Notes under the pieces: generated by a model | Told to the model about the DNA's origin: nothing | Database searches by the model: none | The model's input: only the letters and a program-made list of their open reading frames with translations | Part shown: positions 3,601 through 54,787 of the stretch, one piece after another | How positions within the stretch are numbered: the stretch's first letter is position 1 | Layout of the letters: every line of letters starts with the position of its first letter | From: Asterochloris sp. CNOR1 | Taxonomy: Eukaryota; Chlorophyta; Trebouxiophyceae; Trebouxiales; Trebouxiaceae | Assembly (NCBI GenBank): GCA_963969365.1 | Contig: OZ017755.1 | Location: forward strand, 2,728,001-2,792,000 | DNA length: 64,000 bases | Direction of reading: 5' to 3' | Program-made: the position numbers and the translations under genes

Positions 3601-6600
3601 AAGTGCTGTTGGCAGTGCTGGCGGGGGCCGCAGTTGTGTTGCTGGTGCTGTTGGCCAGGGCCTGGGAGGCGTTCTGCCTCTGCAGGACGCCTGTCAGCTG
3701 CTGGGGGCTCAGCGTGGCATTGTTGGCAGTGGCGTTTGCGCCAGCTGGCGCCTGAGCGGCTGTGCCGTTGGCCAGGGCCTGGGAGGCATTCTGGCCCTGC
3801 AGCACGCCTGTCAGCTGCTGGCGGCTCAGCGTGGCATTGTTGGCGGTGGCATTGACGCCAGCTGGTGCCTGAGTGGCTGTGCTGTTGGCCAGGGCCTGGG
3901 AGGCATTCTGGCCCTGCAGCGCGCCTGCCAGCTGGTTGAGGCTCAGCGTAGTGTTGCCAGTTGTGGCATTGGCGCCAGCTGGCGGCCGCGCCACAGCTGT
4001 GGCATTAGCCAGCGCCAACGATGCACCGCTGCCCAGCAGGGCCCCAGCCAGCAGGGTGCTGTTGAGGGTGGAGTTGCGTGCAGTGGGCGCTGGCGTGGTG
4101 GCAGCTGGAGACACTGTGACTGCCCGGCTGGTGCTTGTGGACGGCGGCGCTGTGGTCGCTGCCGTGGTGGGCGCGCGTGTGGTGGCTGCGGGGGAGCCCG
4201 TGGTTGCTGGGCTGGCGCTCGTGGACGGCGGTGCTGTACTCCTTGGCGGTGGGCTTGGGCTGCTGCTGGCGGTGGGCGAAGGTGTGGGCGGTGCTGGGCT
4301 GGCCGTGGGGCTGCTGGTCGTGTTCTGTGACGTTGTGGGAAGGAGGGCACCTGTAATTGTGGTGTTGCTGGCGCTGCTGTTTGTGTTTGCAGGCGAGGAG
4401 CTGACAATTCTGGGAGATAATGTGGTGCCTGTAGACAGATTTCCGTTCAGGGCTGTTAGGTTCTGGTTGAGGGCCCCTGTCGCATTCTGGGCAGCACTTT
4501 GCAGCGTGGATGCCAGCTGGCCATGGGACAGCTGGGTATCATTGCCAGCAGTCAAACCTGCTGGTGTCAGCGTGGGAGCGCCTTGAGCAGGTGCTGCAGT
4601 TGTGTTGCTGCTTGACAGCGCAGTGTCTGGGGTGGCCGTGTGCAAGGGGGATAGGGGTGACACGGTGCCTTGCAAGCTGCTGGTCACGTTGCTGAGGCGC
4701 TGCGAATTGTTTTGTGCGTTGACTGCCACGGCATTGACCACTTGTTCAGGGGGGAGTAGTCCAGTTGCATTGGGGCTGTTCGTGGCCGCTGCTGGCGAGC
4801 TGGGGGGGCCAGTCAGCACGTTCTGGGCGTTGGTGCCTGGTGTCAAAACCTGTGGTGGTGCTGAGGCGCTGGAGACAGGTGCTCTGCTGGCTGGGATGGT
4901 TGTGGGTGGTGCCAGCTGTTGTGGCCTCTGTGGGGATGTGCCTGGGCGCAGCCAGCACAGCTTGAGGCAGGCAGTGCTGAGGGCCGTCGCCATGCTCAAC
5001 GCATGCACAGCACTAGGCAGGGCCAAAGCTGTAGGGCTGGGCCAGCCAGCAGCAGAATCAGCATCCTCACAGGGAAGAGTGCTGTTTACGAGAGGTTCAG
5101 GCAGGCAGTGTTGGGAGGCGCTTGAGCGCCGAGCCCCAGGCTTGCCCCAGTCCAGACACAAGGTGCTCACCTGAGAACACTGAGGCAGAGACTGCAGGAG
5201 TGGAGCCTGGAGCAGGTGTGGCGCCTACAATCAGAGCAGGCACAGTCGTGATGCTGGGTGATGGCGATGAGCTGGGGACTGGAGAGGCTGGTGGCGGCGT
5301 TGGACTTGCAGGTGGGGGCCTGGCTGTTGAAGGTGATGTGGCAGGACTGGTACTGGCACCTGCAGAGTCAGAAACAGGGGTTAAGAATGGCTGAGTTTGG
5401 CAGCAAAGTTTGATGGCCACTTACACCAGCACATAGATATAAACTCAGGGAGCACCCTTCATAACCTCAGAGGCATCCAGTTTCCTGTCATCAAATCAGC
5501 CGCTGTGGTGAAGGGGTGGTGCTTAATGGGGTGTGGTGGCCACTGGTGCAGCGCCAGTTGGCGGACTGAGAGAACCCGCCTTAGGCCAAAGCAGGGAGCT
5601 GGGAGACTAGCACAGACATTAGCCTGTTGTCCCAACAAAGCTGGAGAATGTCCCGGCCCCAGAGCCTGGTGTGAGTTGCCTGACAGCAGGTTTGCCAGGG
5701 CAACTGACAGCAGGATGCCAACATTGCCTTATGAAGGAGACACGGGTGCTGAGATCAGGAGCTCTGGCATTTGCCGCAGCACTGGGCAGCAGCTGCATGA
5801 GTCATGTGATTGACGTCATGATGGGTGAGGTCCACTGGCCAATGATATGCATGTTGCCAGCCAGCATGGGCTGCATGTTGTCCAGGACATCAACAGAGGA
5901 TGTGGTCCTTGAGAGGCGCAGGAGAGACCCCAGAAATCTGTTGCAGCGCCTGCCACCTCCGATTGTGTGTAGCTGGCAGTGGCCAAGAGTTTGCCATATC
6001 CAACCAAAATGTGAGCAGGGCACCCAGTCATCGTCAGAAAGTCCGTGCCAGCATGCCTGGTTGAGACTGCTGGCCGACAGCCTGGGAAGGCACTCAGACT
6101 GGCAGCCCACCCACCTGGCGATGGAGGTGGAGAGGGGGATGCTGGTGGCGAGCGTGAGGTGCTGAGTGAGGGTGAAGCTCCAGGCGCCGCAGTGGCTGCA
6201 GGACTAGGGCTGCCCCCTGGAGCAGGCGTGCCAGCTGGCGATGGGACAGTTGTCGCGGCCGGAGGGGTGATGCCGCCAGCGCCAACGACAGGTGGGCTGG
6301 AGCCTGCAGCAGGGGAGTAGGCGGGCGGTCAGCAGCAGATACGCAGGCGCGGCCAAGGGGCAGGCCTCACGCCCCTGACTGGGATCAAGGTTGCAGCAGG
6401 CACAGCTGTGGCAGCCAGCACACTCACCTGGCGATGAAGGTGGTGAGGGTGACGCTCCAGGTGCCGCATTGGCTGTAAGACTGGAGCTGCTCCCAGGTGG
6501 CGATGAAACAGTCGTCGCGGCAGGAGAGGTGATGCGGCCGGCGGCAATGACAGGTGGGCTGGAGCCTGCAGAAAGGGATCAGGCAGGCGGTCAGCAGCAT

Positions 6601-9600
6601 GCAGACAGGTGCGGGGCGTGGCGGGTGGCTTGAGGCTGGTGTTGGCAGTATCTGGAAGGCAGGTGTAACAAGACCAGGTGCAGCATGTGCCAGCGTGCGA
6701 CATAGGGGGGACATGCAAACGGTACAGGCATGTCGCAGAACCCTCTGTGAAGGGTGCATGCCTGGTGAGATGGTGGCGGCGGGTATTGCAGCTGGTGGTG
6801 TTCCAGGGGTGATTCCAGGAGAGGCAGTGGGAGGGGAAGGGGTGTTCGCAAAGTCGCGGGGTGTTGATGGCGTGGCCGGGGCTCCAGCTGTGGCCGCCTG
6901 CTGGGGGGGTACTGGTGCAGGCGTGGCAGCAGTGACTGCCCCTACAGCTGCCGCCAAGCTGGGGCTGGAGCCTGGCACCCCTGTTGCTGGCGCTGCTGGT
7001 GTTGGGCTGGAATCTGGCATGCTTGCGTCTGTGCTTGGACTGGGCACCTGTGGGGCACCAACAGTGGCTGGCGCTGGGCTCAATCCTGGGCTCAGGCCTG
7101 GGCTCAGCCCTGGGCTGGCCGCGGGTGGGCTCAGTCCTGGGCTTGCCACCGCTGGGCTCAGCCCCTGGCGTGCCACCGCTGGGCTCAGCCCCGGGCTGGC
7201 CGCGGCTGGGCTCAGCCCCGGGCTTGCCACCGCTGGGCTCAGCCCCGGGCTTGCCACCGCTGGGCTCAGCCCCGGGCTTGCCACCGCTGGGCTGAGGGCT
7301 GGGGTTGCCCCAGCCGCAGTGATGCCGTTGACAGGCGCGGTGGTGCCGCTGACAGGCGCGGCGCCTCCAGTCGCTGGCACCGCACTCCCTGCCTGCACCG
7401 GACTGGCAGGCTGCTGCTGAGGCAGTCCTGGGCTTGCCCCTGTTGCTGGCGTCGCGCTGCCTGCCTCTGCCGCTGGCTTCCCGCCGCCTGCCCCTGCCGC
7501 TGGCGTCCCGCTCCCTGCCCCTGTCGCCGGCGTCCCGCTGCTGACCCCAGTTGCTGGGGTCGCCAGCTCTGGAGTGGGAGGCAGCTGAGGGGAAGTGGGC
7601 ATCACTGCGGTGGGGCTCATGCTGCCCCCCAAGGGAGGGCCAGGGACTGGGCTGCTGGGGGTGATGGATGGCGTAGGAGGCTGTTGCAGAGTTGGGGCTC
7701 CAGGAGCGGCTGGGGGTGTTGGCGACTGCGGTGATGAGGGTGGTGGGTTGTCGGGTGACGTACCAGGCGATGTGTTGCTGCTGGTCACTGGAGATGGTGG
7801 CGCCCCGCTTGCAGCAGGGGAGGTGCCCCCAGTTGCAGCAAGGGGGATGCTCCCGGTGGTCACTGGCGATGCTGGTGCTGCGCCGGCAGCAGGGGAGGTG
7901 CCTCCGCTGGCTGCTGGGGATGCTGGTGCTCCGCCGGCAGCAGGAGAGGTGCCTCCGCTGGTCACTGGCGATGCTGGTGCTGCGCCGGCAGCAGGGGAGG
8001 TGCCTCCGCTGGCTGCTGGGGATGCTGGTGCTCCGCCGGCAGCAGGAGAGGTGCCTCCGCTGGTCACTGGCGATGCTGGTGCTGCGCCGGCAGCAGGGGA
8101 GGTGCCTCCGCTGGCTGCTGGGGATGCTGGTGCTCCGCCGGCAGCAGGAGAGGCGCCTCCGCTGGTCACTGGCGATGCTGGTGCTCCGCCGGCAGCAGGA
8201 AAAGCGCCTCCGCTGGTCACTGGCGATGCTGGTGTCCCAGCAGCAGCAGGGGAGGTGCCTCCGCTGGCTGCTGGTGATGCTGGTGCCCCAGCAGCAGCAG
8301 CTGAAGTGCCGGCCAGGCTGGGGGTGCTGGGAGTTGCACTGTAGATGAGTCCAAGATTTCTGGGCTGGTGTTGGGCAGCGCATTGATGACGGCAGCAGTC
8401 GTGCTGTCTGAGGGGCCAGGCGGCTGTGGACTGAAGGGCAAGAACTGAGGGTTCCCTGTCTGACTGAAGGTTGGCGTGCTGGACTGCGCCGCCGCTTCTG
8501 GGGATGTGTTGGCCCCAGGGGGAGATGGGGAGGCTACTGGGCTGGCGCCGCCCTGAGGCGGCCCCAAGACAGAAGACACTGCACAGACACCAATATGGGG
8601 GCTAGCAAGCATCCAAAACAGGTGGTTTCACATGCAGTGGCAGGCACAATGACAGAGCTGGCTCCCACGCACGGGGCCAGGTGGTGCAAGGGATACCCCC
8701 TAAACCCTAAACCCTCGGGGGTGAGAGGGGAGCCGCCACAGACAGGGGACGTGGTGGGCTGCGCTGAGTTGCGCTGTTGCTATGTGCTGAGATTGGCCAA
8801 GACGGGGCCATGCAGGCTCAACAGTGGGCTGTGGGGGCAGAGGTGGGCAGTGGTGTCCGTGGTGGGCGCTTGGTTTGGTGGGCGTTGCCACAGGGGGCGG
8901 TGTACAGCTTGAATGGGCATGGTTGGCATTGCTGCACTGGCACCCAGCTCACCTCCAGCAGGTGAGGTCCCAGCTCCAGGCGATGCCGGCGGTGTTCCAG
9001 GGGAGGACCTGCGAAAGGCACAGGTCACCAGATCACAAAAGGCCTTGGACGCATCCAGAGCCGGATGCCCTGACAGCAGAGAAGGTAGGCAGTGCAGAGG
9101 TGCAGGCAGAGGCTGACAAGCATTGCAGACTCTGGCATGTTGTCATTTTAGGGGAAAAACATTGCGCAGATTGGTCCAGCCAGATGTCAGGTGGCTGCAA
9201 GCCCTTGAGGGGAGGCAGCCCTTGACAACACAGCCCAAACGCCCTTGGGTGAGGGGAAGAGGTGACAACGCTGGAGGCCTTGACATGAGGCAGGTCCTGC
9301 ACAACCTACAATCCCAACAATCAAAACCCTAAACCCTGACGCTCACGGTGAGGGGGATGAAGGGGTCCCAATGTTGCCTGGGGCTGACTGCCAGTCGTGA
9401 CCGTGAGCCCGTTGCCACTGGTTGCAGGGCTGGAAGGGGGTGTTGATGCGGGAGACAGCTGCTCGGCAGCAGCCTGCGTGCCTGTGCTGGGGGTGGACCA
9501 GCTGGCAGGCACAGATCCTGCAATCATCATCACGCTCGTCAGAAGATGAGCAAGCTCATGTCAGGATGAGCAAGCTGTTAAGCTGCTGTGGCATTGGTAT

Positions 9601-30438: not shown

Positions 30439-31383
30439 TCACCAGGGCGAGACTGGCCGGTGCAATGGGATATCAAGGCGCTCATTGGCCCTTCGGGCAC
30501 GACGCAGCATGTCATCCAGGGACCAGGCTGTTGCCTCAAAATCAAAGCGCTCCTCCATGGAGGCCAGCACCTGCTGCACTGCCGCCAGCTGAGCAGGACT
30601 AAGCCAGTTGACTGCTGAGGCTGGTGCTGCAAGGCCAGCTGCTAGAAGGTGGTCCTCCAGTAGGACATTTCTGGCCATCCCATCCCGTGCATAGTCCTGC
30701 AGATGAGAGTCAACTGTGGACACAGCAATGCAAGCGCTGTGCTTGGCATTGGTGAGGGCCAGCCCTTGAGGCTCCACTCTACAAGTGACCGCTATCAAGC
30801 TTCTCAGTGCAGCACTGGGACAGAAGTCTGACCTGCAGCTCCTGCCACTGCAGTGGGTCCACAGAGCAGGCAAAGGGGTTCACAAAGAGGCAGTCTGGCT
30901 CAGCCTCAGGCTGGTCAAACACGTCTTTGAATGCTCCACTGCCAGCTGTCCTGCTGCGCTTGTTGATGATCATGTCCTGCAGCCATAGCAGCCCTGCTTG
31001 AGTGCAGAGGAAACGCCAGATTCAGGTGTGACAGCCGCCCTCAACAGAGAAGTGCTGGACCAAACCTGCATTGCAGCCCAGGCTGCTTACATACACACTT
31101 TGCACATGAATGGTGAACAGACCTCAAGGAGATGTGAGTAGGCAGCATTCAGGTCCGCTGCCGGGCCAGTGGTGTCCTGCACAGGGTTCACATCTGGATG
31201 CAGCTCCTTTATCTGCTCAATGTAGGCTGCCCTGATCTCTGCCTTGGTGCTCCCCGGAGGTATGCCCAGCAGGGCATGTGCAGCCTCTGTGCTGACGCTG
31301 GTCCGCTGCGCCTGGGCTCTGCAGCAGCACCGCCGCACAGTGGCGGCTGCGTGCAGGGGCCGCTGCAGGCACGTAGAGGGCAC
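30439..31383 (-). CDS. J-domain (DnaJ-type) co-chaperone, probably chloroplast
   Basis: Exon 1 (31383-31123) has an Arg/Ala/Cys-rich start like a transit peptide. A J domain follows: AHALLGIPPGSTKAEIRAAY, HPD in KELHPDVNP, and ADLNAAYSHLLE. Exon 2 (30976-30833) encodes DVFDQPEAEPDCLFVNPFAC and VDPLQWQELQ, a segment I associate with plant chloroplast J-proteins of the DJC76/77 kind. The last part ends with WLSPAQLAAVQQVLASMEE, LRRARRANERL and a stop at 30439. The junction between exon 2 and the last part is not in phase with any AG I can find, so an intron boundary there is unresolved. It would stimulate an Hsp70 ATPase. Confidence 0.7.
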
Positions 31384-31607
31384 AGGTCAGACGGCTGCTG
31401 TCCTGGAGCACACACTGTTGCTTTCCTGCAGCACACGCTGTGCATGTGCCAGGCATGAGAAGCAAGAGCTTTTGCACAGCTCACTGCGGTCTTACCGTGG
31501 CTTGCTATGTGACAGTGCCCGGAAGGTCTCACCTGCACATGGGACGGGGCCTGTGTGTGGCACTGTGCCTGGTGCGACAGTTGGGGTCCCCGCATGGCCA
31601 GCCCTGC

Positions 31608-32173: not shown

Positions 32174-34576
32174 ATGTCATTAACTTTCGACCCGCCACTG
32201 CAGGAGACTCTGTCAAATGCCGGCAATCCCATGCCTGGAATCCCAGCAGGCGTCCTTGTGAACAGCACTGTCTATGCACTCGGCCTTCAGATCCTGCTTA
32301 AAGGTGCGGCCTGCAGGTGCTACGTCCCCCCGGCCTCACCTGCTGCTCCAACAGCATGTGCTGGCAGCACACATTTTGACATGCAATTGAGACCAAGACT
32401 CTCTACAGGTCTCACACCAGCTGGAGTTGCCCACAGTTGGGTGCTGGGGTGCACAATCTACTCCGCCTTTGGCCCAGGAGGGTACCTGCTCGTCTGTTTG
32501 TATTTCATTCTGGGCTCTGCGGTGCGTGCTTACATGACCATCGTGGGCTCTGCAATGTGCTGCTTGTGAGACTAATCTGGGCTGTGTGGTGCACTGCTCA
32601 TGTGACATACAGCACCACCAGCTTGCGCATCACTTATGCCCTGGCCCCTTCGCGCAATCACATCCTGGTGCCTACCCGCCTGCTGTCTGAATGCACATCA
32701 TCAGCTTGGCCTTATTGAAGTCCTCTACCTAGGGACGGTGCAGCACACGCTGAAGCACTTGGTGCCACAGTCAGCTGAACTGCTGTGTCTAAAGCTGGCT
32801 GTGCAACAGCACTGGTCTTGTGCCTGCCGTGCTCCACACGCTGCTGTGATTGCTTCTTCACAGAGGCTGCAGCGCTCTCTGACAGGAAGTTCCCCTCTTG
32901 AAACCTACTGACAGCCATGTCATGCCTGCAGGGAACCAGAGTCAAGCTTGTGCGGAACTGAGGCAAGGGCACTCCAGCTGCGATGTGCTTAGAGGCTGCT
33001 GAGATTCGAGAGGTGCCTGCAGGTGACAAAGGTCAAGCTGGCACAGAAGCAGAAGGAGGGCATCGCAGAAGCTCGCTCAGGCAAGCGCTCCCCCGTGAGT
33101 ACTGCCTGACGGTGCTTGGCCATGCAGGGCAGAGGCCTCCACGTGCAAGCAATGAGAGCTGCCTCCTTGTGCAAGCTCTGTAGAGGGCTGCTCGGCAACC
33201 GCTTGCCTGAGAGTGCTGCCTTGCAGATCTGCCATGCTCGGCAGAGGCCTGGCAAGCGCTGGCCGGCAAGTGCTGCCTCTGTGCATGTGCCATGCTCTGC
33301 ATGCCCTGCGCCATGCTTAGTCAGAATGCTTGATGCACGTGTGCATGCCCAATGCTGAGCCATGCAATCTGAGGGCAGCTGCTGGACCAGTGGAGGGGCA
33401 GCACACAGCCTGAGCCGATACCTGCTGGCAAGTCATGCTGCTTATTGACGAAAGCCAGCTGCTCCGTGCAGGGCAGTGTCTGGGGCTCAGGCTTTGCAGG
33501 AGTGGTGTGTGGGGCAGCTGCGCTGCTTACCGGCGACAACATCTGGAGGGTACGCCTGTTTGTGTTTTGGGTGCCCAATGGTATGCAGTGCCCATGCACA
33601 ACTAGATGAGCTCAGGGGACGACAAGTCCCGATGAAACGCGCCTGCCCGCGAAAGCTTGTGCTGCATGTGCAGGTGGGCTTTGTGGCATCACTTGTCAGC
33701 AAGCTGTCGGACACGGTGTCCTCAGAGATTGGTAAGGTGAGTCACATCTGTGAAGGCATTCTCTGCACCTATGGCACTGCAAAGTTAGCTGGAGGTGCCT
33801 GGACAGTGAGGATCCAGCTCCTGACAACTCCCGCTGGGCTGCAGACGGCCCAGGGTCTCAGGGCTGCCTGCCTAATGCGTGCATGCTTGTCGGCCTGCAG
33901 CCGCATGGCTGCTCAGCAGCCTCACTGCGCAGCCAGCTTTGAGCTGTCTGCAGCTGTCAGGGCTGCACAGGCTGGTGGCACTGGCTACTGGCTCCCAGCT
34001 GTGTGACATGTCCACCTGGAAGACGGGTGTGCCGAGCAGCAAATAACAGGAATTGCTTGATTTGAGATGCTGCATCCGCATCGAGGGATGCACAAGGAGT
34101 GACATGCTTGGCGCAACAAAGGGCAGCCCCAGGCAGGTTTCAGGGAGGCTTGCCCTGCGTGCAGGCTTATGGAAAAACCACCTACCTTATCACCACCCTG
34201 CGTCGAGTCCCCAGGGGTACAGAGGGCGCTGTGAGCTTGGAGGGGACTGCTGGCGGGGTGGCCGCCGCGCTGGGCTTTGCCACAGTTGCCACGGCGGCGG
34301 GGCAGGTGGATGCACAGCAGGTGTGATATAAAATGTTTGTTATTTTGCTGTATGTGCCTCAAAAGTGCTCTATGATGCAGCACCCTCTGATGCGAGACAT
34401 CTGGTACGCAGGCCGCCATTGTGACGCTGGCAGCCGTGATTGCCAACCTATTTGAGAGCTACCTAGGGGCCAGCATCCAGGGAGGGCAGGCATGGCTAAC
34501 AAATGATGTGATCAATGCATTACAGATCTCTGTGGCAGCTGGAATCGCCATGCTGATTGCTGCAAGGACTTTTTGA
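32174..34576 (+). CDS. VTE6: Phytyl-phosphate kinase, VTE6-like (DUF92)
   Basis: Phosphorylates phytyl-phosphate to phytyl-diphosphate, the salvage step that returns chlorophyll's phytol to tocopherol synthesis; VTE6 acts in the plastid envelope. Exons: to 32303 (VLVNSTVYALGLQILLKG), 32409-32521 (LTPAGVAHSWVLG...FGPGGYLLVCLYF), 33023-33094 (VKLAQKQKEGIAEARSGKR), 33472-33549 (GSVWGSGFAGVVCG), 33674-33736 (SKLSDTVSSEIGK), 34165-34320 (AYGKTTY...RGTEGAVSLEGT) and 34412-34576 (NLFESYLGA, WLTNDVINALQ; TGA 34574). Every junction is in phase and follows the family order. The protein is polytopic. The start is provisional: the frame is open back to 32063, and no clear transit peptide was found. Confidence 0.9.
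32920..33300 (+). repeat. Decayed copies of a VTE6 exon on both sides of it
   Basis: The true exon is 33023-33094. Upstream, GCCTGCAGGGAACCAGAGTC near 32926 imitates its acceptor and start. Downstream, its end plus donor and early intron (GCAAGCGCTCCCCCGTGAGT, then CTTGGCCATGCAGGGCAGAG) recur as GGCAACCGCTTGCCTGAGAG near 33194 and GGCAAGCGCTGGCCGGCAAG near 33250. Each is followed by a GCCATGC phrase, giving a period of about 60-75 bp. Confidence 0.75.
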
Positions 34577-35870
34577 GCGACTTTCCCTGAAGCTTCAGCC
34601 TGGTCATCGCAGATGATGCTAGACAGCACTAAGTTACGATTGTCATGCATGGAAGTATGAGTCAGTAAGAGAGCGAACTGCTGTGAGTCTCTCTGTGGAC
34701 GTCTCATGTGGATGTCAGTTTGCCTGGACACAGCCTTGACGCGCACACCGTCAGTGCCAGCCCCGCCGAGCAGTGCTGGGCAGAGTGGTCATCCCCTTTG
34801 CTGCGGCAGGTGTTTGATAGGGAGGAGCTCAGGCCCCTGCCGCCCGGAAGGCACTAAGCTTCCACATGTGCAAAACCTGCCCCTGGTCAGAGCCTTGCAA
34901 CACGGCTGCCATGGCAGGCGGCCATGTGCCCGTGATGCAACAGGCCTGAAAGCAGGGCTGTCCATGGCCAACATGTGCTCAGTGGCAGCAGCTGCGGTGC
35001 AGGGCAGCCTGGCCAGGCAGCACTGGGCCTAGCAGCAGAAGCTGCCAGCTGGAATGCGGAGAGGACTGCCCTGGCAGTCCTGACAAGGGTGATCTGAGAA
35101 TAGATGCGCCACCATGAGTGCCCTTAAGCTGAGAGGGTGTGCAGCAGTGTGGTTGCTGCTGTCAGCTTGGCGGGGCATGACAGCATGGCTGTTCCTGGCA
35201 CAGCAGCGCTTGCTTTTGGGCCCTTGAGAACAGCCACGTCTCATGTATGTGGCACCGGGCGCACCATACATGTCCTTTGCCCAGCCTGCAACCAATATGA
35301 GGCGCCCACCTATCACATTTGCCTGCTTGTGCCATGCCTGAGCAGATGCCAACAGACACTATTGCATCCATTGTTGCCCTTGAATTCAGGAAACTGTGTG
35401 GAATGAAGCACAAACTGAACAGCTACAGGAGGATGTATGTTGTAGATTGTGAAACCTGTCTGCCATGAAGTTCAGGGGGTTGCAGGTTTGGAACTGCATG
35501 TCTCGCAGCAGCCCGTCATGTCATGCCATGGCGTGCAGATGTATGGCATGCAGATCATGCCGCCCTTCGAGGCTTCAAAATTCTTTGAACTTCCGGACTA
35601 AGACCTGCCGTCATCACTTCGAAGTGATGAACGTGGCGCCTCTGGGTGGCCGGCATCATGCTAGGACCCAAGTGGTCAAGCGCAAAGGACGCTACCCTCT
35701 AGACACTGGTTAGCGAGGGACAATTGGATCGCTGCTGATCATGGAGCCTGACCAGGTGGGCCTGCTGTTTGCTTGTGAGGGGACATGCAACATGCCTGAG
35801 ACAAACATTCAAAGCACAGGCCCTGCGGGGGGCTCAAATCCGCAAGGTGACAATATTCATGCACCTGCAG
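34577..35870. other. Unassigned; may hold 5' exons of the b561 gene
   Basis: A frame starting at 35114 after ACC gives a signal-like run (VWLLLSAW, then MTAWLFLAQQ) but stops after 37 codons without a clear donor. No DOMON-type exon could be recognised between 34.6 and 35.87 kb. Other frames look random. Confidence 0.3.
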
Positions 35871-37032
35871 CTGTATCAGCATGGGCGCCAGCTCTTACAA
35901 GCCGGTGACTCAAGCGATCACCTCATTCACATACATGGTGAGCCCAGTATGCAGCACTGCTCCGCTGTTGATGTGCTTCAGTTGCTGACTGCTTCCATGT
36001 CGTGGCATGGGCGGCTCCAAGAGGCCAGCTGGCGCAGTAACTCTCTGCCTCGACCGCCTGCAGGCTGGCTCATGGCAGCCAGCTGGGGCTTCCTCATTCC
36101 CATTGGGGTCACCTTGGCCATCTTCAGATCGGTTCGTGGGATGCGCCCCTGGTGGTTCTACCTGCACAGCGTGATTCAGACACTGGGCTTCCTGCTGTCC
36201 CTGGCAGGCATCGGGGTCGGTGCCCAGCTCAACATTGACCAGCAGCTTCAAAGGCGGCACAGGCAAGCGCCTGGCCCCCTGAGGTTGCACCTCGACCCAG
36301 CAGTGAGGCACAAGAGTGTATCCAGATTGGAGACCCAGGGACATCCAATGGGTGGCGGCAAGGGTGCAGCAGCCAAGAGGGGTTGCAGCAAGGTTGCAGC
36401 CCTTGCAAGTGCTTGATGTTGGCTAATTTCTGCTGCAGGGCTGTGGGCATCACTGTGACTGTGCTGGCCGGCGTGCAGTGGCTGACAGCCGTCTTTTGGC
36501 GGCCAGACCGTGGGGTACAGCTGCGCCGCTGGTGGAACGTCTGGCATCATTCATGGGGTCGCATAGCCTTCGCCTTGGCAATTGCGAATATCTACGTCGG
36601 GCTGTGCATCACCCAGCCTGGAACACGCTACTTCGTCGGGCAGACTGTGGTGTTCGGCGTCTTGTTCGCGCTGGTGAGTTGTACTCACACTTTTGTGACA
36701 TTTGTCTACAAATGCCAGCAGCTTGTGGATGCAGTCAATGCGCCTGGCTGTGCCTTGCAGGTGGTACTGAAGAATGACATCGAGTATCTCATGAAGCCCT
36801 GGACACCTGCCACCGAGGAGGACGCCGACATGAAGCGCCTACTCACAGGTAAGGCAGAGCAAACATCGGCAATCTGCCCTGCCTGCCACCTCTTGCACCA
36901 CTTCACTGCTTTCCATGGCCTACAGGTGGGCAGCCAACAGGGACTACGTACAACGCTGGCTCATCAAAGCCAGCAAACAACTACTCAGCCCCTGCAGCGC
37001 CAACCAATGGCAACTCGCAGACCATGGTGTAA
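35871..37032 (+). CDS. Cytochrome b561-domain membrane protein (5' end not found)
   Basis: Cytochrome b561 proteins carry electrons across membranes through two haems held by His pairs. Exons: 35871-35937 (ends HLIHIHG), about 36064-36262, 36440-36673, 36761-36848, and about 36927 to TAA at 37030. Seen in order: HGWLMAASWGFLIPIGV, WWFYLHSVIQTLGFLLSLAG, HRAVGITVTVLAGVQWL, VWHHSWGRIAFALAIANIYV, then NDIEYLMKPW and a Gly/Asn/Ser-rich tail. The His residues in HG, YLH, HRA and HHSWGR fit the haem ligands. Plant relatives of this type often have an N-terminal DOMON domain; the exon before HGW may be its end, but the rest is unseen. The donor at 36263 is AG|GCAAGC. Confidence 0.8.
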
Positions 37033-37417
37033 ATCCAATTCTTTGCTGCCCCAGGTTCCCACCTGACCTTTTTCACCTTGCATTTCTGCTCTGCCGGGTT
37101 TGGCATGTGGGCAGCTGCAATTTGTCATTCCAGCAGTTGCTTAAGCACAACCCTTGAGCAGGAGGCATGCCTAGGGGTGTGACATTATCGTATTGAATTA
37201 GATAGTAGTATCTTTCAAGGATGACGCATATATGTTGCATCTCCCCTTGTGGCAGACCATGTCTGTGGTCACTTGAAGGTCATGCAGAACACTTGCTTGA
37301 TTGCTTGCACAACGCGTGTTTTGAATTGTGAATTTGGAGGAACATCTGGTCAAGATTCCTCTAGCCCATTGGTGGGCCAAGTCCAGCAACCTAAGAGCAT
37401 CACCTTGGGTGCCTCTG

Positions 37418-39407
37418 TTACAGGTTTTTGTAAACGCTGTCAGTATCTAAAGTGGCCATGCAATTAATTGCCTGCTGAAAGGCTGGAATCTGTTGGTCCT
37501 TGCTAATTTCCTTGCGTGCCATGAGTTCGCCCCAGATAACCATCACTGCCTGCAGTCCAGCTGCAAGAAGTAAGGCAGACTGCAGCAGGGAATAATGGAA
37601 AGTGCTGCGATGCCACAGCTTGCAGCTTTCACCATAAACGGCCAGCCATATGATGCTTGCCTGCGCAGTTGCTCGGACATCTGAGTCAGAGGCTTTGCCT
37701 GTCGCACAAACAGCCCTTTGCATGGTGCTCTGGCTATCCAGGAATTGAAAGTGCCCCGAATCAGAAACAGCAACCTGCCACGCTGGGGCAGAGCACGCCT
37801 CATAAAAGAGCCTGCATTGACAAATTATCAAACTTGGCCTGTAAAAGGAACATGTGCACTACTAATTGCTTTTGGGCAGCCTAAATAGGATTGGCACAGT
37901 CAATGGGCAGCCCTGCTTGCAATGTTCCACGCTGTGGAGTGGTCACCGGTAATTGGCGTTTTTGGGAGCACAGTCGCCTCCAAGAGAACTGCCAACCACA
38001 GCCAAGGGGACGATCTGAGGATTGGCCACTGCCTGCAGGGTAGAGGGGAGAGATGAACCAGTCCCAAGCAGACTGCATGCATCAACCAGCACTTGCTCTG
38101 CAGAACCTAAGATGCTTACCTTCTTGCTGCCAAACTCCCTCAGCGCTTGGACAGCTGAAGGGAAGCCAGGCCCCAGGGGTGCCCACGCTGTGTTGTCCAC
38201 AGGGTCGATGAGGCACAGCGCGGACACCCTGGGATCCAGGCCTGCTGCCAGCACACTCACTTTGGCACCCTGCACGCAGGCAAACAGCTTCCGTGGTGTG
38301 CTGGTCTGCGATTCATCGCACCCTGGCGCATGTCATTGACAGCTCCATCCGCGGCCAGAACTGCTGCCTGGCAAGCAGCCCCTGGTGCCAAAGGGCTCTT
38401 TTGTCGAGAGTGTGGTCCCAGGGCATTGTGGGCATCGCCTGCTGATTGCATGCACCAGCATGTCTCTGTTGAGCCTGTCGGACTCACCCTGCTATGGCCA
38501 CAGAGGTACACATGTGAATTGCATGCCATCTGCCCTATGATGGGATCCTTCCCACACCAATCGATGATTTCTTGGAGCATGCTGACCGAGAGCTCATCAT
38601 CAATGGGCTCCACCAAGCTCTCAGCTGCATCAGGGCACGAGGCAGCTGAGCCCACAACAGCAGAAAAGAGGCTTCTCACTCCAACTGCCCCAACATACAC
38701 TGTGGAAGCGCCCACATACACCAGAACAATCAACAGCAAAGGTCGGCAGTGTAGCTGCCAGGCCGAGGACCCACCTTTGTCCCAGAGTACGGCCACCCAG
38801 CCCCAGCTGGCCAGGCGCTCTGCAAAAGAAGTGTAGCTGCTGCTGGGCACCAGGAAGCCGCTGGTGAAGATAGCAAGGGGGTAGGGGGGATGCCTGCCTG
38901 CACAGCAACACTGTGGTTGCTAGGGTACCAGCCTGGCGACTGAGGGAGTTGTTGCATGCTGCTTGCAGGGTGCATGTGGCCACACTATGGCTGAATACTG
39001 GTATGCGCGCGTACACTACATAGGCGTAAAGGCATGCAGTGCTGACCATCACCTGGAGGGGGACTGCGGGGATAGAAGATGCTGCAGCGCAGCAGGCACT
39101 GCGTCCCCACGCATGCCGGAAAGAGCTTGTGGCAGGTGTGCTCCAGGCGGGGGAGCCTGGCAATCACAAATGGGCCTGGCTGGCTGTAGTTTGTGCTGCT
39201 GGGGTCAGAGGGGTGCTGGTGGGGCGGCAGCAGCTCCTGCTGCTGCAGCTGAGGTATTCTGTGGGCTGCAGAGGAGTCCCGGTGCTCTGCAGCTAACAAG
39301 GCCTGCAGCATGTCGCCTGCCTTAGGCGTCCAGCACTGGGCAGACAGAGCCAGGTGCCTGGGCACTGCAAGGCGGGCACCCATACCTCTGGAAAACTTTG
39401 ACAACAT
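37418..39407 (-). CDS. CLH: Chlorophyllase
   Basis: Alpha/beta hydrolase that cuts the phytol ester of chlorophyll or pheophytin. Exon 1 (39407-39053): about 60 variable residues, probably a transit peptide, then RLPRLEHTCHKLFPACVG and CSIFYPRSPPPG. Exon 2 (38897-38775): YPLAIFTSGFLVPSSSYTSF and WVAVLWDKG. Later exons: ELSVSMLQEIIDWC with the nucleophile motif GHSRG split by an intron; LDPRVSALCLIDPVDNTAW (catalytic Asp); PLAVVGSSLGG and APKNANYR; and AVSDSGHFQFLD (catalytic His). The last exon (37549-37418) ends SVYKNL and TAA. The Ser-Asp-His triad is complete. The last intron has a GC donor (CAG|GCAAGC at 37660). It is head to head with SGR. Confidence 0.92.
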
Positions 39408-39626
39408 GCCAGAGTGGCTCCCACAGCCAGCAAGCTCCTCCTGGTCAACTCTGCAGCCTGATCAGGTCTAGCAATGGCTGGATCACGTGCAGCATTTCTT
39501 GGTGGTGGGTGCTGGCATTGATTTGCACGCTGTTTGTGAGCTGACCTCTGCCTGGAGTAGGAAGCCGGTGGTCCCGTTGCGTGAGTCTCAGATGCCATGT
39601 GAGCCAATGCACTTGGATAGTGTCAG
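39408..39626. promoter_or_regulatory. Candidate bidirectional promoter, CLH / SGR
   Basis: Only 219 bases separate the proposed starts of chlorophyllase (minus, 39407) and SGR (plus, 39627). No TATA box is obvious. Both start codons are provisional, so the true shared interval may be somewhat larger or smaller. Confidence 0.5.
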
Positions 39627-41466
39627 ATGGGCTTAGGTCAACGCCGATCTAAATCTCCACGCAGTGCTTCCTGTAGGCTGGGTACTCAGCGGGGCTGCAT
39701 GGCCCATGCATGGGTACTGGGTCCTTCAGGCTGGGGGTGGCGTTGTTCCACTCTCCGTCAAAGGCCTACGGAAGCTCTGCACAAGCCATGCTGCAGATCC
39801 AGCCATTGTGGCCTTCCTCTGAAAGAGTGTCAGTCTCGTCAGCTGCATAAGAGAGGATCCCTTCATGTGGTGAGCCGAAGTGTTTCTTACTGATGTTCTG
39901 CATGCCTGCCTGGGATCTCCTGAGAACAATCATGCCATCCCAATGTGCAGGCTGCTGCGCTGTTCACTCCACCCACGTTCAGCGCAGCCAAGCTGTCAGT
40001 GTTCTTCCTGCCTGACTCCTCCAGTCAGCAAGTGGCCAACAAGGCCAGATGCTACACTCTTACCCACAATGACCTCACAGGCCAGCTGCATCTTACCATT
40101 GGGGACCGCTACAACGAACAGCAATTGGCTGGCTGGTACAACCGACTGCTGCGGGATGAGGTACTTGCCTACTGGCGGTTTGATGGCAGCCAGGGGCCAG
40201 AGCTGCACGTGGAGTGCCATGTCAGTGGAGAGGAGAGCTGGCTAGCCCCGCCAGCGCTGCGAGACTACATTTTCAGACGAGAGATGCCGCTGGTGAGCAG
40301 CCTGCCGCAAACCTCATCACTGATGTGGCGGGGTGGCAGACTTCCACTGCTGTGCATGCAGCGCTAGCATCATGTGATGCACTCTTCAGGATGTCGCAGT
40401 CACGTGATTGCTGCTTGTGGAAAGACCCTGACCAAGGCCTGGGGCTTGAGCGGGAATGCGGAGCTGTGAGACCTCACCTGCCTTGCAGCAAGTCATCTCT
40501 GCAGCAAACAACACGACTGTCTGCTGTGCAGGTGCTGGACGTGATAAACTCAGCAGAGCATGCCCTGTTTGAGCAGCAGCCGGAGCTGGGAGATGCACAA
40601 GTCTTTGTGCACCTCACGTCGCATGTCGAGGTGAGGCGGCCAGCTGTACCAATGCTAGCACAAAGGCTCTTGGCTCATTTGCTGGCAGCCATGCAGCCGC
40701 TGAAAACACTCAGTCAGACGCTGTGCTGCAATCTCAACTGTGGCTCTCGCCCTGCTGCAGCACACTTTCTTGACATCTGCCGTAAAGTTTGAATCGGACA
40801 GCCCACCCACTTGCTTCTGTCGCACTGAGAAGCGCCCTGTCTGCCCTGCAGCGTCTCCATGCCACAGTCCTCTGGGGCTGCCTGTCAGACCGATCCAGCT
40901 GGCTACAATCGCCGGCCTTCTGGAGGCGTCACGACCCCACTCCAGCGTCAGCATCAGCAGCACCCTCTGCCGCACTGGCCCCCACGCCCCCTGGCCCTGG
41001 CGGCACAGGATTTCTCAGAGCACAGCAGCAGGCACAGCGGCAGCAGAACGGCAATGGCAGCCCTGTGGTGGAGCAGCTGCCAGCGCAAGCCGGACGTGGC
41101 GATGATAGTGGGCCTGGCAGAGCTTCCCCCTCGCTGACAACTGACCCTTCATCAGAAACTTTAGACAGTCGCTCCCTCTGTGATGATGAGGCTTCCTGGC
41201 ATGTATCCATCACCGACCGTCAAACCCAGCACTGGCATGTGGAGGCAGCCTTGATTGCCTGCTGCCGAGACAACAGCGTGCAGTGGCTTGCAAGGCCAGG
41301 CGGACAGGCTGCCATTGCAGTTTGCGGCCTGCAAGCTTACACAGGCCTCATCCACCTCCTGTGGAGAATTTTGCAGCATGATTGGACAACTTACAATGCT
41401 AGCAGTGAGAGGACTGCGCTGCGCCAGCCACCCCCATCTCAATTGTATGAACCCCCCTTCTTCTAA
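39627..41466 (+). CDS. SGR: STAY-GREEN protein (Mg-dechelatase)
   Basis: Removes Mg from chlorophyll a, giving pheophytin a, the committing step of chlorophyll breakdown. Exon 1 (39627-39869) is Arg/Ser/Cys-rich, like a transit peptide; exon 2 is 39951-40292, exon 3 is 40532-40630, and exon 4 is 40852 to TAA at 41464. Family marks in order: ALFTPPTFSAAKLSVFFLP, CYTLTHNDLTGQLHLTIG, GWYNRLLRDEVLAYW, LHVECHVSG, LRDYIFRREMPL, ALFEQQPELGDAQVFVHL and TVLWGCLSD. Junctions are in phase 0. The C-terminal tail after WGCLSD is about 190 residues, Pro/Ser/Gln-rich and much longer than in land-plant SGR; an intron or a different end there is possible. Exon 1 is less certain than the core. Confidence 0.92.
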
Positions 41467-41758
41467 ATCAACACGTATTCAGACCTCATGCATACATGTC
41501 AAACATGCATCACGCCATTGCTCTTAGCCCTTGCCCATTCCACTCCATGTTCAGGCAGAGGGCTCTCCTGTCTGCTGGGTCGATGCTGACATGGTGCACC
41601 CCTGCAAACAGGATTTCTTATCTAGGATAGGTGAGAGGGCCCTTGGGATAAAGCAACTGCAAGTAATACTTGCTTTCTTGCTGAGCACGAACAAGCAGTA
41701 GCGCCCGTCTTCGTTGCTGCACCCTGTGCAAACCGCGCTCCATGCTTCAGAGTAAAAC

Positions 41759-43311
41759 ATGAGTATGGGGGAGCTGCTGGCTGGCCTGCCTTCTGAGGTG
41801 CGGGTACACATCTTCTGCCTGGCACTTGATCTTCCTACCGTGCTGCGGCACTGGCTCGATCTCGCCATGGTGAGTCTGTACAGGCGTCTGGTCTCTTATG
41901 TGACAGAATGAAAACCATCCTGTACCGTTTTCATTGACATGGCTCAACATCGCCATGCTGACGATTGCTGCTGACTTGCTGCACCCCTGCTTGCATGCTC
42001 AGGTCTGCAAGGGCTGGATGCGGGAGCTGGTTCTGCATGTGCCTGTGAATGTGGGGCGCTAAGAACTCCAGGGCTCCCGGCCTTCCACCCGTCACTGGCA
42101 CCTGCGTCCCCCCAGACAATGGCTTCTGCAGCCAGTCCCCCACGGGATCTGCATTCGGAGCCTGGCACTTTCTGGAAGACATTGTGCTGCCTGCCCAGCA
42201 GCAGCGGCGATGCCCCAGGATCTGTTTCTCATGCAAACATCACAGCTACAGAACATTCAGGGCCTTCTTCTACAGGATGCACAGTGCCCAGACTTTCCTA
42301 CCATGCCCAGGCTGACACACCTGCGGATGTCATGTGAGCCAGTCGCAACCCAGGCAGTGCTGCCCCTCCCCAGTTTACCTATGCTTGAGGTGCTCACCCT
42401 CGAAGGCGTCAGCAAATGCCCCAGCTTAAGCTGCTTGAGTAGACTGACCAGTCTTTCATTGACCGGTTATTACCTCTCAGGGCCACCAGTCTATTCAGCC
42501 TCTGCTGACATACTGCAAATCATCAAGGTATGCCATGCTTGCTCATGCTTGTGTCTCTGCACAGGTGCCTTTGCCTGACCACACCTTGTGTTCATATGTC
42601 TCCAGGATCTGCCTCAACTGAGATCTCTGTATCTGAACTGGACCTCCCCTGAGCCCGTGGTGTTCGGGGACACACTCATGGGGCTGACGCAGCTGAGATC
42701 CTTGCATCTGAGCTGGACCTCCCCTGAGCCCGTGATGTTTGGGGACGCACTCATGGGGCTGACACAGCTGGAGACTCTGGACTTTCATCTGTCAGACTTC
42801 AGCGGATTGCAGCAGCTGCCACCCCATAACACATCTCTTACATTGCACACCTTTAAGCTCCTGGATGTGGCAATGGTGCCTTGCTTGCAGAGCTGCTCCG
42901 GCTTGCAACGCCTGAAGCTTCATTCCGCTGCGGGTGTGCACAAACATGCTGTTGCTTTGAGGGCCCAAGCAACATCAATCACAAGTGACTGCATGGCTTG
43001 CAGGTGTTGAAAACTTCCAGCTGAGCCACTGGCCCGCACTCACCAAGCTGACTTTGACCAACGTTGATTCTGGGCACTTCCGGCTACGTCACTGGCCTCC
43101 CCTGGAAGCAGAACCCTTTGGTCTGCCCGGCCTTGCTGAGCTGGACGTGTGGGTGCAGTCTGATGCCACAGGCTTGCTACAGCTGGAGCACACCATTCTT
43201 GGTCTGATGCTCAACACCTCAGCCCTGTGGCACAGCACCCATGACACCTTTTACATGTATTCAATAGGTCCCACTCGGGATTTCCGGCCCAAAAGATGCT
43301 GTGTATCCTGA
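41759..43311 (+). CDS. F-box / leucine-rich-repeat protein
   Basis: Exon 1 (41759-41869) gives MSMGELLAGLPSEVRVHIF and LPTVLRHWLDLAM. Exon 2, from 42003, continues VCKGWMRELVLHVPV; together they form a divergent F-box. LRR exons follow: 42210-42525 (TMPRLTHLRMSCEP, LPMLEVLTLEGV, LSRLTSLSLTGYYLS), 42604 onwards (DLPQLRSLYLNW, LTQLRSLHLSW, LTQLETLDFHL) and about 43015-43311 (LTKLTLTNVDS, LAELDVWVQ). Junctions between the F-box and first LRR exon are not resolved. It is probably an SCF substrate receptor; the target is unknown. It is unrelated in sequence detail to the F-box pair at 16-18 kb. Confidence 0.68.
42622..42771 (+). repeat. 75-bp in-frame duplication of LRR coding sequence
   Basis: Two nearly identical 75-bp units (starting 42622 and 42697) encode 25 residues each, including WTSPEPVVFGD or WTSPEPVMFGD and LMGLTQL. 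A third, diverged LRR follows with the same spacing. Confidence 0.85.
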
Positions 43312-43461
43312 AGATGCAACACTCAAGAAGCCTTCACAGGGTCATCTGCAGACTATGCACTGTTGTCCAAGAGTGCAGCTGTATGACCAAAATGGTGAGG
43401 GCAGAGCGTTTCACTCAGCAAACAGTCATGTAATCATCAAATGACAGGACAAAGCTCAATG

Positions 43462-46400
43462 TTATGGAAGCCCAGCCCATGCACCAGCTTTTTTGGGGGT
43501 GCTTTCAGGGGGTGCTTGCTGCTGCTGTGCACCAGTCTTTGCTTGCTGAGTGCTATCGTCTGCTGCAACGGCAGCTTTTGGTCTTGTGATGCGCTGGAAG
43601 GCCAGTCGCACCTTGCTGCCGGTGTCAATCTGTTCCAGAGGGTCCTTGCGCAATCTGCAATTGGCAGAGTGCCTGATTTGGCAACAGCGCAATACTAGTC
43701 ATGCCTTGCATGAGGCGCCAGGCCTAAATAGCGTAGGCAGGTATCGTGAACATTTGGCCCAGTGGCTTGCCTGTGATTCAGGCAGATGCTGATGATGCGC
43801 CCAACATCGCTCAGCTCCACAGTTGTGCGGCCCTCCAAAGCCACCAGTGCTCGTGCTGCTCTGTTGATCACAATGTCTCCTCGAATGCCATCCACATTGA
43901 GCAGGCTGCATATTTCGCTGATCTTGAGGCGCACCTGCAGTGAGCCATGCACGTGATTCAAAGCAGCACCTGGGCAAACAAAACAAACCTGTCCTTCAAG
44001 CAGGGGAGCCATAGCTGTGCACTCAATCTAGGTGAGCTGCTGACCTCACAGCCACCCATCACTGCACCACCTTTACATCACAGGCGGTGCGGATATACAC
44101 AAGCTATTCCTCACATCTGGGTCCATCTGCACAGACTTGAGACGGCGAGTCGCATCGACAAGCTTTTGCCGCAAAGCGCTCTGTTCCTCCTCACACTTTG
44201 CATAGTAGCCGTCAGGGTCCTGCAGCGCAGCACTGTGCATGTCATGAGAAGTGCAGCCACATCAATGCTGCCAGCCTCTCAACCGCAGGCTGGCATCAGC
44301 TACTGCAGCGCACTGCTGTGCATGAGGCGCTGCACACCATGAGTGTTGCCCTCTCTTACAGCCTGCATCAGCTGCAAGCAGGTTGTGCCACCTCAGCTGC
44401 CATCGTCTAGGAACAGAGCACCTGCATTATGGCAAACACCCAAACAAATGCTGTCAAGGCGTGCACCACCAGTATGTGCCTTGGGTGACTAACAACTTCA
44501 TTCCAATGCATCATGTGTGGGCAATTTCATGCCGCAGGAGGACCCAACATCAGCATGTGGGCCCCCCTCGCTCTCGGGTGGCCGCTCTCAGGTGGCACTT
44601 GCGCTCTCAAGTGTCACCTGCTCATATGCCAGCCTGTCGAGGACCATCTGGGTGCGGACGTCCACATCCATCATGGTCGACACCGACACGCTCATGCCAA
44701 AGCGGTCCAGCAGCTGCGGCCGCATCTCACCCTCCTGCACCACCAGGTGGGACGCTGTCATGACGAGATCAACAGCAAGCCCAGCCTGGACCACAGTCTC
44801 TCAGCAGCGTGGCCACAGCCCATCTTGGCCATGGTGCCACACAACAAAGAGGGACAGGCTTGACGCCAGCAACAACATAGAAGCATGCCTGGCATAATCC
44901 GCTGTTTGGGCTGCAGTGCAAAAGTTCACGTCAATCACGATGGCAGCTTGCCCACATCCAAGCAGTGCAAGCCCACCTGTGGGTTTCCTGAGCCAATCAT
45001 GATGAACTTGGCGGGGTGGACAATGCTGATGCCCTCCCGCTCCACTGTGTTGATGCCGCTGGCTGCACTGTCTAGCACCACATCCACCAGGCCATCCTCC
45101 AGCAAGTTGACCTCATCCACGTACAGGATGCCTCTGTTGGCCTTGGCCTGTGTGAAGACACAGCGAGGCAGTGACCAAGGCCTGTCCTGTTGAGCGACTG
45201 GATGCAGGGAGCCTCTGTGCTGTTCTGGCTCAACAGGCCATGGCACACAAAGAGAACCCCATGCCACCATGTGTACAACTGTCAGGCTGATCTGTTGAGA
45301 TGCCAGGACTCTTGCATTGCATGGAAGCCAGGTCTGGGTTGGCAAGCAAGAGCGTCGTGGTGCTAGCAGCATGAAGCCAGCTGTAGATGTCCCCAAGGTG
45401 TGCCCTGAGATGTCAGTACATGTATCTGACAGGTTTGCAACCGATCCTGGCTGTGCTCACCAGCAACCCAGGCTCATAGGCCTTGATGCCCTCCTGCAGC
45501 GCCTTCTCGATGTCAATCGTGCCACAGATCCTGTCCTCAGTTGCCCCCAGTGGCAGCTCCACCTGCAGGTCGGGGCGGGTGACACCTCTGTGCCGTGCGC
45601 AAGCCACGCAATGCATGACCTCCAGAAACCGTATGCCCTCAGAGTCTGGGCGAAAGCAGCAGCACGGCAAGATGACATGGCACATCAGGATCGTCATTGC
45701 CAGCAGGCGTCGTCACTTTTGCAATGAAAAGCTGCTTCTGTCGAAGGTGGTTTCTCTCTGCTTGCCTTGCTCCACATTGCAACGTATGGCGCCGTGCCAT
45801 GTCATCACTTTGGCAGACCTGCCGGTGCACAGCAGGAGTGGAGTTCAGAGCCCACCAGGGGTGTCCTGGCCTCGCCGGCTGGCAGCTGTTCCCCATTCTG
45901 GTATCGCCGAAGCACATCAGGGCCCATCATCTTGACATCAGTGGGACTGGAGTTGAAGGGGTCGTCCGGTACCACTGGGATCATGGGCAGCAGGTCCACC
46001 ATCGCCCGCACCTGCATGCACGCTAGCCTTCAGGATGGAGAACAGGACCTCTCACCCCTCACGACAGTAAGAAGTTCCAAGCACGCCTGACTGAGCGCAT
46101 GTCACAAAATTGTATCCTCTTAGTATGCTGGCTGGTTTGGCAAGCAAGCTGCTCAAGCAGACGACAACCCTCCAATGACAAAGCTTGGCCAGCAATATGG
46201 CAAGGAGGGCTGTGAAGCGGCAGAACAGTCCTGTAGGCACCTTTTTGGTTGAGCCAGCTGCTCAAACAGCTGATCGGCTCCAGCAGTACCACTATATGAA
46301 GCCACAGAGCGCCTTGAGCATGCTGCACCCTCAGCCCACCCCAGCACAATCATACCCACACAAACGCAGACTCACCGCCACAGACTTCCCGGTCCCCCTG

Positions 46401-46753
46401 TCGCCCATGATCAGCACGCCGCCAATATTGGGGTCCACTACATTCAGCAGAATGGCCAGCTTCATCTCCTCCTGCCCTGCCAGCTTGACAAAGGGCAGGC
46501 TGGGCGTTCTGGCCTGCACCTCCTTCTCGGCGACAACAGCTGCCATGACCAGCATGCCGCCATGGCGCCGGCTGCATTTGCCTCTGCTGCTGCGCTGATT
46601 GTGAAACCAGCCTACTGTAGGGCGTGGGGGGTGAGGGTTCAGAGCTGCAGTGCGAGTCAGGGGAGCGTGCAGCTGGGCATGCAAACGGCCACTGAAGCAG
46701 GCCTCCGACTGGGCATGCAGGGAGCATGCTGTTGGGACCGTCATGTGGGCCAA
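43462..46753 (-). CDS. CHLI: Magnesium chelatase subunit I
   Basis: AAA+ ATPase subunit of plastid Mg-chelatase, which inserts Mg into protoporphyrin IX. In gene order: [18 protein letters not shown] and Walker A GDRGTGKS (exon ends 46376); [20 protein letters not shown] and [36 protein letters not shown]; Walker B region [14 protein letters not shown], then [13 protein letters not shown] and [55 protein letters not shown]; and [20 protein letters not shown] with a Gln/Pro/Lys-rich tail (TAA at 43464-43462). Exons join in phase; the last intron has a GC donor (CACAG|GCAAGC at 43770). The start at 46753 is provisional, and the transit peptide may be in an unseen upstream exon. Confidence 0.92.

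Positions 46754-47762: not shown

Positions 47763-54787
<7,025 letters not shown>

Follow-up and report, generated by a model that had tools for sequence, protein, structure and literature searches.

Do chlorophyll-related genes that lie side by side on an algal chromosome act together, or is their neighbourhood a product of chance? The question is raised by a stretch of 64,000 nucleotides from the green alga Asterochloris sp. CNOR1 (contig OZ017755.1, here C10, positions 2,728,001-2,792,000; "the window" below), part of a genome of 56.4 Mb in 21 contigs. Along it follow a VTE6-like DUF92 gene (+), a cytochrome b561 gene (+), the chlorophyllase gene CLH (-), the STAY-GREEN gene SGR (+), an LRR-like gene (+) and a CHLI gene (-). 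The best reading, to which we give an even chance of being right, is that of a younger subtelomeric neighbourhood around a divergent CLH-SGR pair which is itself old and probably co-expressed.

The divergent CLH-SGR pair

CLH and SGR diverge from a common point, with predicted start codons 28 bp apart. If these starts are correct, some control DNA must be common to both genes. The pair, and the two further genes that an initial annotation of the window had joined to it, are placed as follows (window coordinates):

37418..39598, minus strand: chlorophyllase gene CLH, spliced model of 8 exons and 413 amino acids, PF07224
39599..39626, no strand: CLH-SGR start-codon interval of 28 bp, candidate shared divergent control region, bounded by predicted start codons
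39627..41466, plus strand: STAY-GREEN gene SGR, Mg-dechelatase family, 4 exons, PF12638
32174..34576, plus strand: VTE6-like DUF92 gene (putative phytyl-phosphate kinase), spliced model of 7 exons and 253 amino acids
43462..46546, minus strand: CHLI2-type paralogue of Mg-chelatase subunit I, spliced model of 8 exons and 392 amino acids

All four named genes can be spliced into open frames, with AG acceptors and with GT donors except for GC in two cases, and their models, like that of the b561 gene, exceed the respective Pfam cut-offs. Exon 1 of SGR (39627-39869) was set by frame and splice sites alone; it runs from an in-frame ATG to a GTGAGC donor, followed by an 81-bp intron. By spliced models and Pfam scores, the four genes are present essentially where the initial annotation had placed them. 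GC-AG introns precede the last exon of both CLH (37661/37549) and CHLI2 (43771/43654).

The CLH model matched the Chlorophyllase family (PF07224) with 74.2 bits (cut-off 26). The serine of its GHSRG motif, the aspartate of DPV and the histidine of GHF align with the solved chlorophyllase chain 8fjd_A; a GHSRG lipase motif with a Ser-Asp-His triad is what we take to be the chlorophyllase signature. The best relative, from Trebouxia, shared 61% identity over 77% of an earlier CLH model, and the sole other CLH-like match in the genome was a 43% segment on contig C2. A twin-arginine followed by a hydrophobic stretch was observed at the N-termini of CLH proteins, both in the window (39386-39598) and in relatives such as P0003, P0012, P0020 and P0035. 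Of 25 relatives with an N-terminal extension, 23 matched a loose pattern for this feature, although several of these hits are clearly spurious; the feature suggests Tat-dependent import into the thylakoid lumen.

SGR is the single match of its kind in the genome, and even the model without exon 1 scored 127.6 bits with the Staygreen family PF12638 (cut-off 27). It contains the segments RCYTLTHND and WYNRLLRDE, whose aspartates are separated by 28 residues, as the residue numbers given for a bacterial SGR homologue require, in which D34 and D62 are described as essential for catalysis (PMC8531759). The motif P-x3-C-x3-C-x-C, the C-terminal cysteine-rich motif of land-plant SGR, was absent from our SGR model, and is described as missing in Chlamydomonas SGR too (PMC7511501). 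The window SGR thus belongs to the same family as the Chlamydomonas protein and keeps the catalytic aspartate positions, but differs in its setting: it stands head to head with CLH, whereas CLH and SGR of Chlamydomonas eustigma lie on separate contigs.

The third gene, VTE6-like, scored 165.2 bits with PF01940 (DUF92; cut-off 27.5) and 178.3 bits with TIGR00297, the latter under the cut-off of 205.85; VTE6 is a DUF92 protein. A second DUF92-like match in the genome (C8:1916891) is 40% identical to the VTE6-like protein over one segment.

The CHLI gene of the window

The fourth gene was assigned by the initial annotation to re-insertion of Mg. Its model, identical to the Asterochloris protein JGI Astpho2/6155 save for 1 of 392 residues, matched AAA_lid_2 with 51.7 bits (cut-off 22.7) and Mg_chelatase with 36.7 bits (cut-off 20.3). 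A complete intronless chlI, 61% identical to the window protein, was found on contig C21 (144,473-145,429). This contig of 215,390 bp has a G+C content of 40%, measured over 10 kb, and carries a large AAA-ATPase open frame near chlI. The published genome of Asterochloris glomerata has 10,025 genes in 56 Mb, and the chloroplast genome measures 217,546 bp (PMC6652019). We infer, with good support, that C21 is the plastid genome. Since C21 carries a complete chlI, we rejected the window gene as the core Mg-chelatase subunit.

A midpoint-rooted tree of 15 rows, from which land-plant and Chlamydomonas CHLI1 were left out, separated the window protein and 12 algal proteins, including C. reinhardtii 12g510800, from the C21 ChlI and a single cyanobacterial ChlI with support 100/100. 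The window protein therefore groups with C. reinhardtii CHLI2. With the NCBIfam ChlI model TIGR02030, it narrowly exceeded the cut-off of 466.95 (477.5 bits), and the C21 copy scored 553.5 bits.

The C-terminal extension of the window protein ends [10 protein letters not shown]. A KxGxWxGLP-like stretch was present in all 12 other CHLI2-type rows of the tree, at most 4 residues from the end and with an insertion in Volvox. In the form KxG-A/S-W-x-GLP (43462-43654 in the window), such a stretch was observed in 13 of 13 CHLI2-type rows and not in the C21 and cyanobacterial ChlI proteins; it is possibly a docking tail.

In chlorophyll synthesis, the substrate of Mg chelatase is protoporphyrin IX, and Mg is not put back into the products of SGR. 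CHLI2 has been described as a group V protein with a C-terminal extension, and neither over-expression nor silencing of C. reinhardtii CHLI2 was reported to affect Mg chelatase or chlorophyll (Brzezowski et al., PMC4915523). Taken together, the chlI gene of C21, the grouping with CHLI2, the results for Chlamydomonas CHLI2 and the substrate of Mg chelatase leave the proposed re-insertion of Mg without support. By its sequence, the window gene is a divergent CHLI2-type paralogue and not a core Mg-chelatase subunit.

The likeness to C. reinhardtii CHLI2 (Cre12.g510800) lies in the divergent CHLI sequence with its C-terminal extension. The arrangement differs. Judging by gene numbers, SGR (Cre12.g487500; PMC8448359) and CHLI2 of C. 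reinhardtii share a chromosome but are not adjacent, whereas in the window they are close neighbours, with about 2 kb and the LRR-like gene in between. Two CHLH-like loci (PF11965) were also observed in the genome, at C10:315 kb and C8:1.88 Mb.

Linkage in other algae

Co-location elsewhere was read from protein tables, as proteins on long contigs of identical size. A contig size was available for 63 of 68 rows for CLH, 115 of the 120 listed for SGR (142 found) and 109 of the 120 listed for CHLI (2,967 found). Equal sizes among contigs below 3 kb (1,993 for CLH-SGR; 1,503 and 2,427 for CLH-CHLI) were set aside as chance and left uncounted, since such equalities are expected in a size range crowded with contigs.

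Among the matches listed, four assemblies had both CLH and SGR, and in three of them the two genes were on one contig: Myrmecia bisecta (5,582,648 bp), Coccomyxa elongata (4,899,248 bp) and Coccomyxa subellipsoidea (3,015,571 bp). A further contig of 771,251 bp also holds CLH and SGR; as it was found by the size match itself, it stands outside this count. In C. elongata the two genes bear the tags g283 and g284, and we treated these numbers as positional, as is usual for such gene finders. In Myrmecia, CLH and SGR are on a single contig of 5.6 Mb but have WJX tags more than 5,000 apart; such tags cannot follow the gene order, and contig identity alone was used there. Myrmecia and Coccomyxa are both trebouxiophytes.

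Gene order is reported to be so rearranged between Asterochloris, Coccomyxa C-169 and Chlorella NC64A that little synteny remains (Armaleo et al., PMC6652019). Against this background of little general synteny, a retained CLH-SGR pair is notable.

CHLI2 behaved differently. On one contig of 2,877,217 bp, Trebouxia C0006 carries both SGR and CHLI2 (tag WJX82), the one case among seven comparable assemblies in which CHLI2 shared a contig with CLH or SGR, again among the matches listed. Two comparisons were left out. The CLH of Trebouxia C0006 (1,821,242-bp contig) has a different tag prefix, ACH3X3, from the SGR and CHLI of WJX82 and was therefore taken to belong to another assembly; the CHLI of Coccomyxa subellipsoidea is from the C-169 assembly (3,057,696), and its CLH and SGR are from another (WJX75). 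Whether the order VTE6-CLH-SGR-CHLI is kept elsewhere had been posed as a check of the cluster: the CLH-SGR linkage recurs in other trebouxiophytes, but conservation of the whole block is not supported, as the CHLI of Myrmecia is on a different contig from CLH and SGR.

Gene order, inheritance and chance

If gene order were random, six consecutive genes would include four of the K genes of a pathway with p of about 1e-4 for K = 60 and about 5e-3 for K = 150. This model used 10,025 genes (PMC6652019), K was set by us and the pathway was picked after looking, so the figures are uncorrected. Twelve other chlorophyll or phytol loci of the genome (three of the PaO family, one FrhB/HCAR-like, ChlP, ChlG, two CHLH-like, GUN4, one CHLD-like on C14 and two CTP-transferase/VTE5-like) are scattered: no two of them are closer together than 356 kb, and none is within 1.5 Mb of the cluster. 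These control loci are the best candidates scored and are labelled by domain only; POR, NYC1, PPH and RCCR are among the genes outside the set. In 400,000 draws of 16 random loci, four fell within 14.6 kb in none and three in 1e-4 of the draws; the further CLH-like and DUF92 matches, on C2 and C8 respectively, and the C21 chlI were not counted among the 16. The physical linkage of four pathway-related genes, as initially annotated, thus exceeds random gene order before correction for the choice of pathway, and even with hundreds of noticeable pathways considered, chance alone is an unlikely explanation.

Several points weigh against an old and jointly controlled pair. Some pair falls within 14.6 kb in 6% of the random draws, and a close pair alone is therefore not striking. 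The conserved order may be explained by plain inheritance. Two of the three assemblies with linkage belong to one genus, Coccomyxa, and the fourth assembly, that of C. eustigma, has CLH and SGR on separate contigs. Adjacency outside Asterochloris is read from the gene numbers of one species, C. elongata. A spacing of 28 bp between start codons may mean that one of the predicted starts is wrong. The CLH1-GFP fusion of C. reinhardtii is described as seen outside the chloroplast (PMC8702186). As to the wider neighbourhood, CHLI2 is apart from CLH or SGR in Myrmecia, C. viridis, Bryopsis, C. eustigma, Symbiochloris (short contigs) and Chromochloris (Cz06, Cz10). The tags NNA_003959 (SGR) and NNA_006038 (CHLI) of Picochlorum renovo are not adjacent either.

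The strongest rival explanation is a chance neighbourhood with ordinary inheritance, in which a rearrangement joined the genes, CLH and SGR stayed unbroken and no control is shared. It agrees with the location of CHLI2 on another contig or chromosome in six of the seven comparable assemblies and with two intervening genes that have no obvious link to chlorophyll; the estimate of 1e-4 to 5e-3 also needs raising for the many pathways that could have been noticed, and most conserved neighbourhoods in algae are described as being of unknown functional relevance (PMC7826186). Against it speak the CLH-SGR linkage across genera with little reported synteny and the wide dispersal of the 12 other placed pathway loci. 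We regard this explanation as a serious but less probable one than the divergent pair.

A four-gene cluster for co-regulated chlorophyll turnover, VTE6-CLH-SGR-CHLI, was the view of the initial annotation. Four pathway-related genes among six consecutive ones, and the contig shared by SGR and CHLI2 in Trebouxia C0006, are what it would lead one to expect. However, the CHLI member is of the CHLI2 type and not the chlI found on C21, the block is not kept in Myrmecia, and the genes alternate in strand with two others in between. Four-gene co-regulation is thus possible but unproved, and the cluster as a whole seems rather improbable to us.

More speculative still is that trebouxiophytes keep a chlorophyll-recycling locus under one divergent CLH-SGR promoter, in which CHLI2, instead of being a part of Mg chelatase, would assist Mg removal or pigment-protein remodelling as an AAA+ partner. 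Such a role would account for the ability of Chlamydomonas to insert Mg without CHLI2, but we consider this reading a long shot.

Finally, a misassembly that brought the genes together had nothing in its favour and was rejected as extremely improbable, because C10 is a 2.8 Mb contig with telomere repeats at one end and the CLH-SGR linkage is seen again in other assemblies.

Chromosomal position and neighbouring genes

The telomere repeats were found at the right end of C10, where 62 copies of TTTAGGG occur within the last 600 bases (C10:2792001-2800539 was read). The cluster is therefore subtelomeric, about 26 to 40 kb from the telomere. No telomere repeats were present in the first 600 bases of the opposite end.

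The two intervening genes are:

36039..36676, plus strand: cytochrome b561 gene, conserved segments only, ends by eye, PF03188 33 bits (cut-off 23)
41759..43308, plus strand: LRR-like gene, LRR matches under the cut-off, span by eye

They had been annotated as a b561 and an F-box protein. The first assignment holds by its PF03188 score; for the second, an LRR-like gene was found instead, with LRR matches below the cut-off, and its 37-residue N-terminal piece gave no Pfam match, so the F-box is unconfirmed.

A DnaJ-domain exon (31090-31386, minus strand; PF00226, 34.1 bits) lies just upstream of VTE6, and enolase-like exons, read by eye, stand head to head with CHLI2 (about 48000-52000, plus strand). 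Very long overlapping open frames of 628, 734 and 725 codons, with starts that appear proline-rich by eye, occupy 3341-8601 on the minus strand. An Rfam scan of the whole window gave no matches.

A possible joint action of CLH and SGR

For the divergent pair, we propose the following course. SGR would take Mg out of chlorophyll a to give pheophytin a, and CLH would remove phytol from chlorophyll or pheophytin; CLH is described as able to dephytylate chlorophyll as well as, in vitro, pheophytin (PMC8702186). Most likely, a divergent control region common to CLH and SGR would switch on both steps together. We infer this shared promoter, and with it co-expression, from the head-to-head arrangement.

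The joint role would probably be in photosystem II (PSII) assembly and repair and not in wholesale degreening. Arabidopsis AtCLH1 is reported to act in PSII repair (PMC8702186), and Chlamydomonas SGR to serve not degreening but the formation of PSII (Chen et al., cited in PMC7511501). These two roles, and the pigment substrate that the enzymes have in common, make joint action in PSII assembly or repair the likeliest function.

The freed phytol could be recycled by VTE6 to tocopherol or new chlorophyll, in line with the phytol salvage described for this enzyme (PMC11989935). CHLI2 probably became a close neighbour later. A functional link of VTE6 and CHLI2 to the pair may exist, and the pair itself appears to be the older part of the arrangement.

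Relation to known gene clusters

In purple bacteria, genes for chlorophyll-type pigments are grouped in photosynthesis gene clusters, which are prokaryotic biosynthesis operons. Here, too, pigment genes are grouped on a chromosome, but the locus is eukaryotic and nuclear, consists mainly of turnover genes, contains introns and alternates in strand.

Closer parallels are found in green algae, for which 317 conserved gene neighbourhoods have been reported and five earlier functional clusters named, including those for nitrate, urea and photorespiration (Foflonker and Blaby-Haas 2020, PMC7826186). Like the present locus, these neighbourhoods, described there with a six-gene window, are small nuclear gene groups, some of them pathway-related, that are kept across green algae. 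They differ in that at least two classes were required, whereas all our named cases of CLH-SGR linkage are trebouxiophytes. A word search of the main text of PMC7826186 returned no chlorophyll, SGR or tetrapyrrole, and in the open-licence literature we found neither a chlorophyll-turnover gene cluster nor an algal CLH-SGR pair.

The locus therefore adds to an established kind, the conserved gene neighbourhoods of green algae, with the CLH-SGR pair as its robust core. Few functional gene clusters are described as established in green algal nuclear genomes (PMC7826186). A linkage of CLH and SGR across genera with little reported synteny would connect two enzymes, neither of which has a settled role in algae. 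The neighbourhood provides a positional clue to the role of CHLI2, and the CLH-SGR pair offers a direct test of joint action in photosystem II repair.

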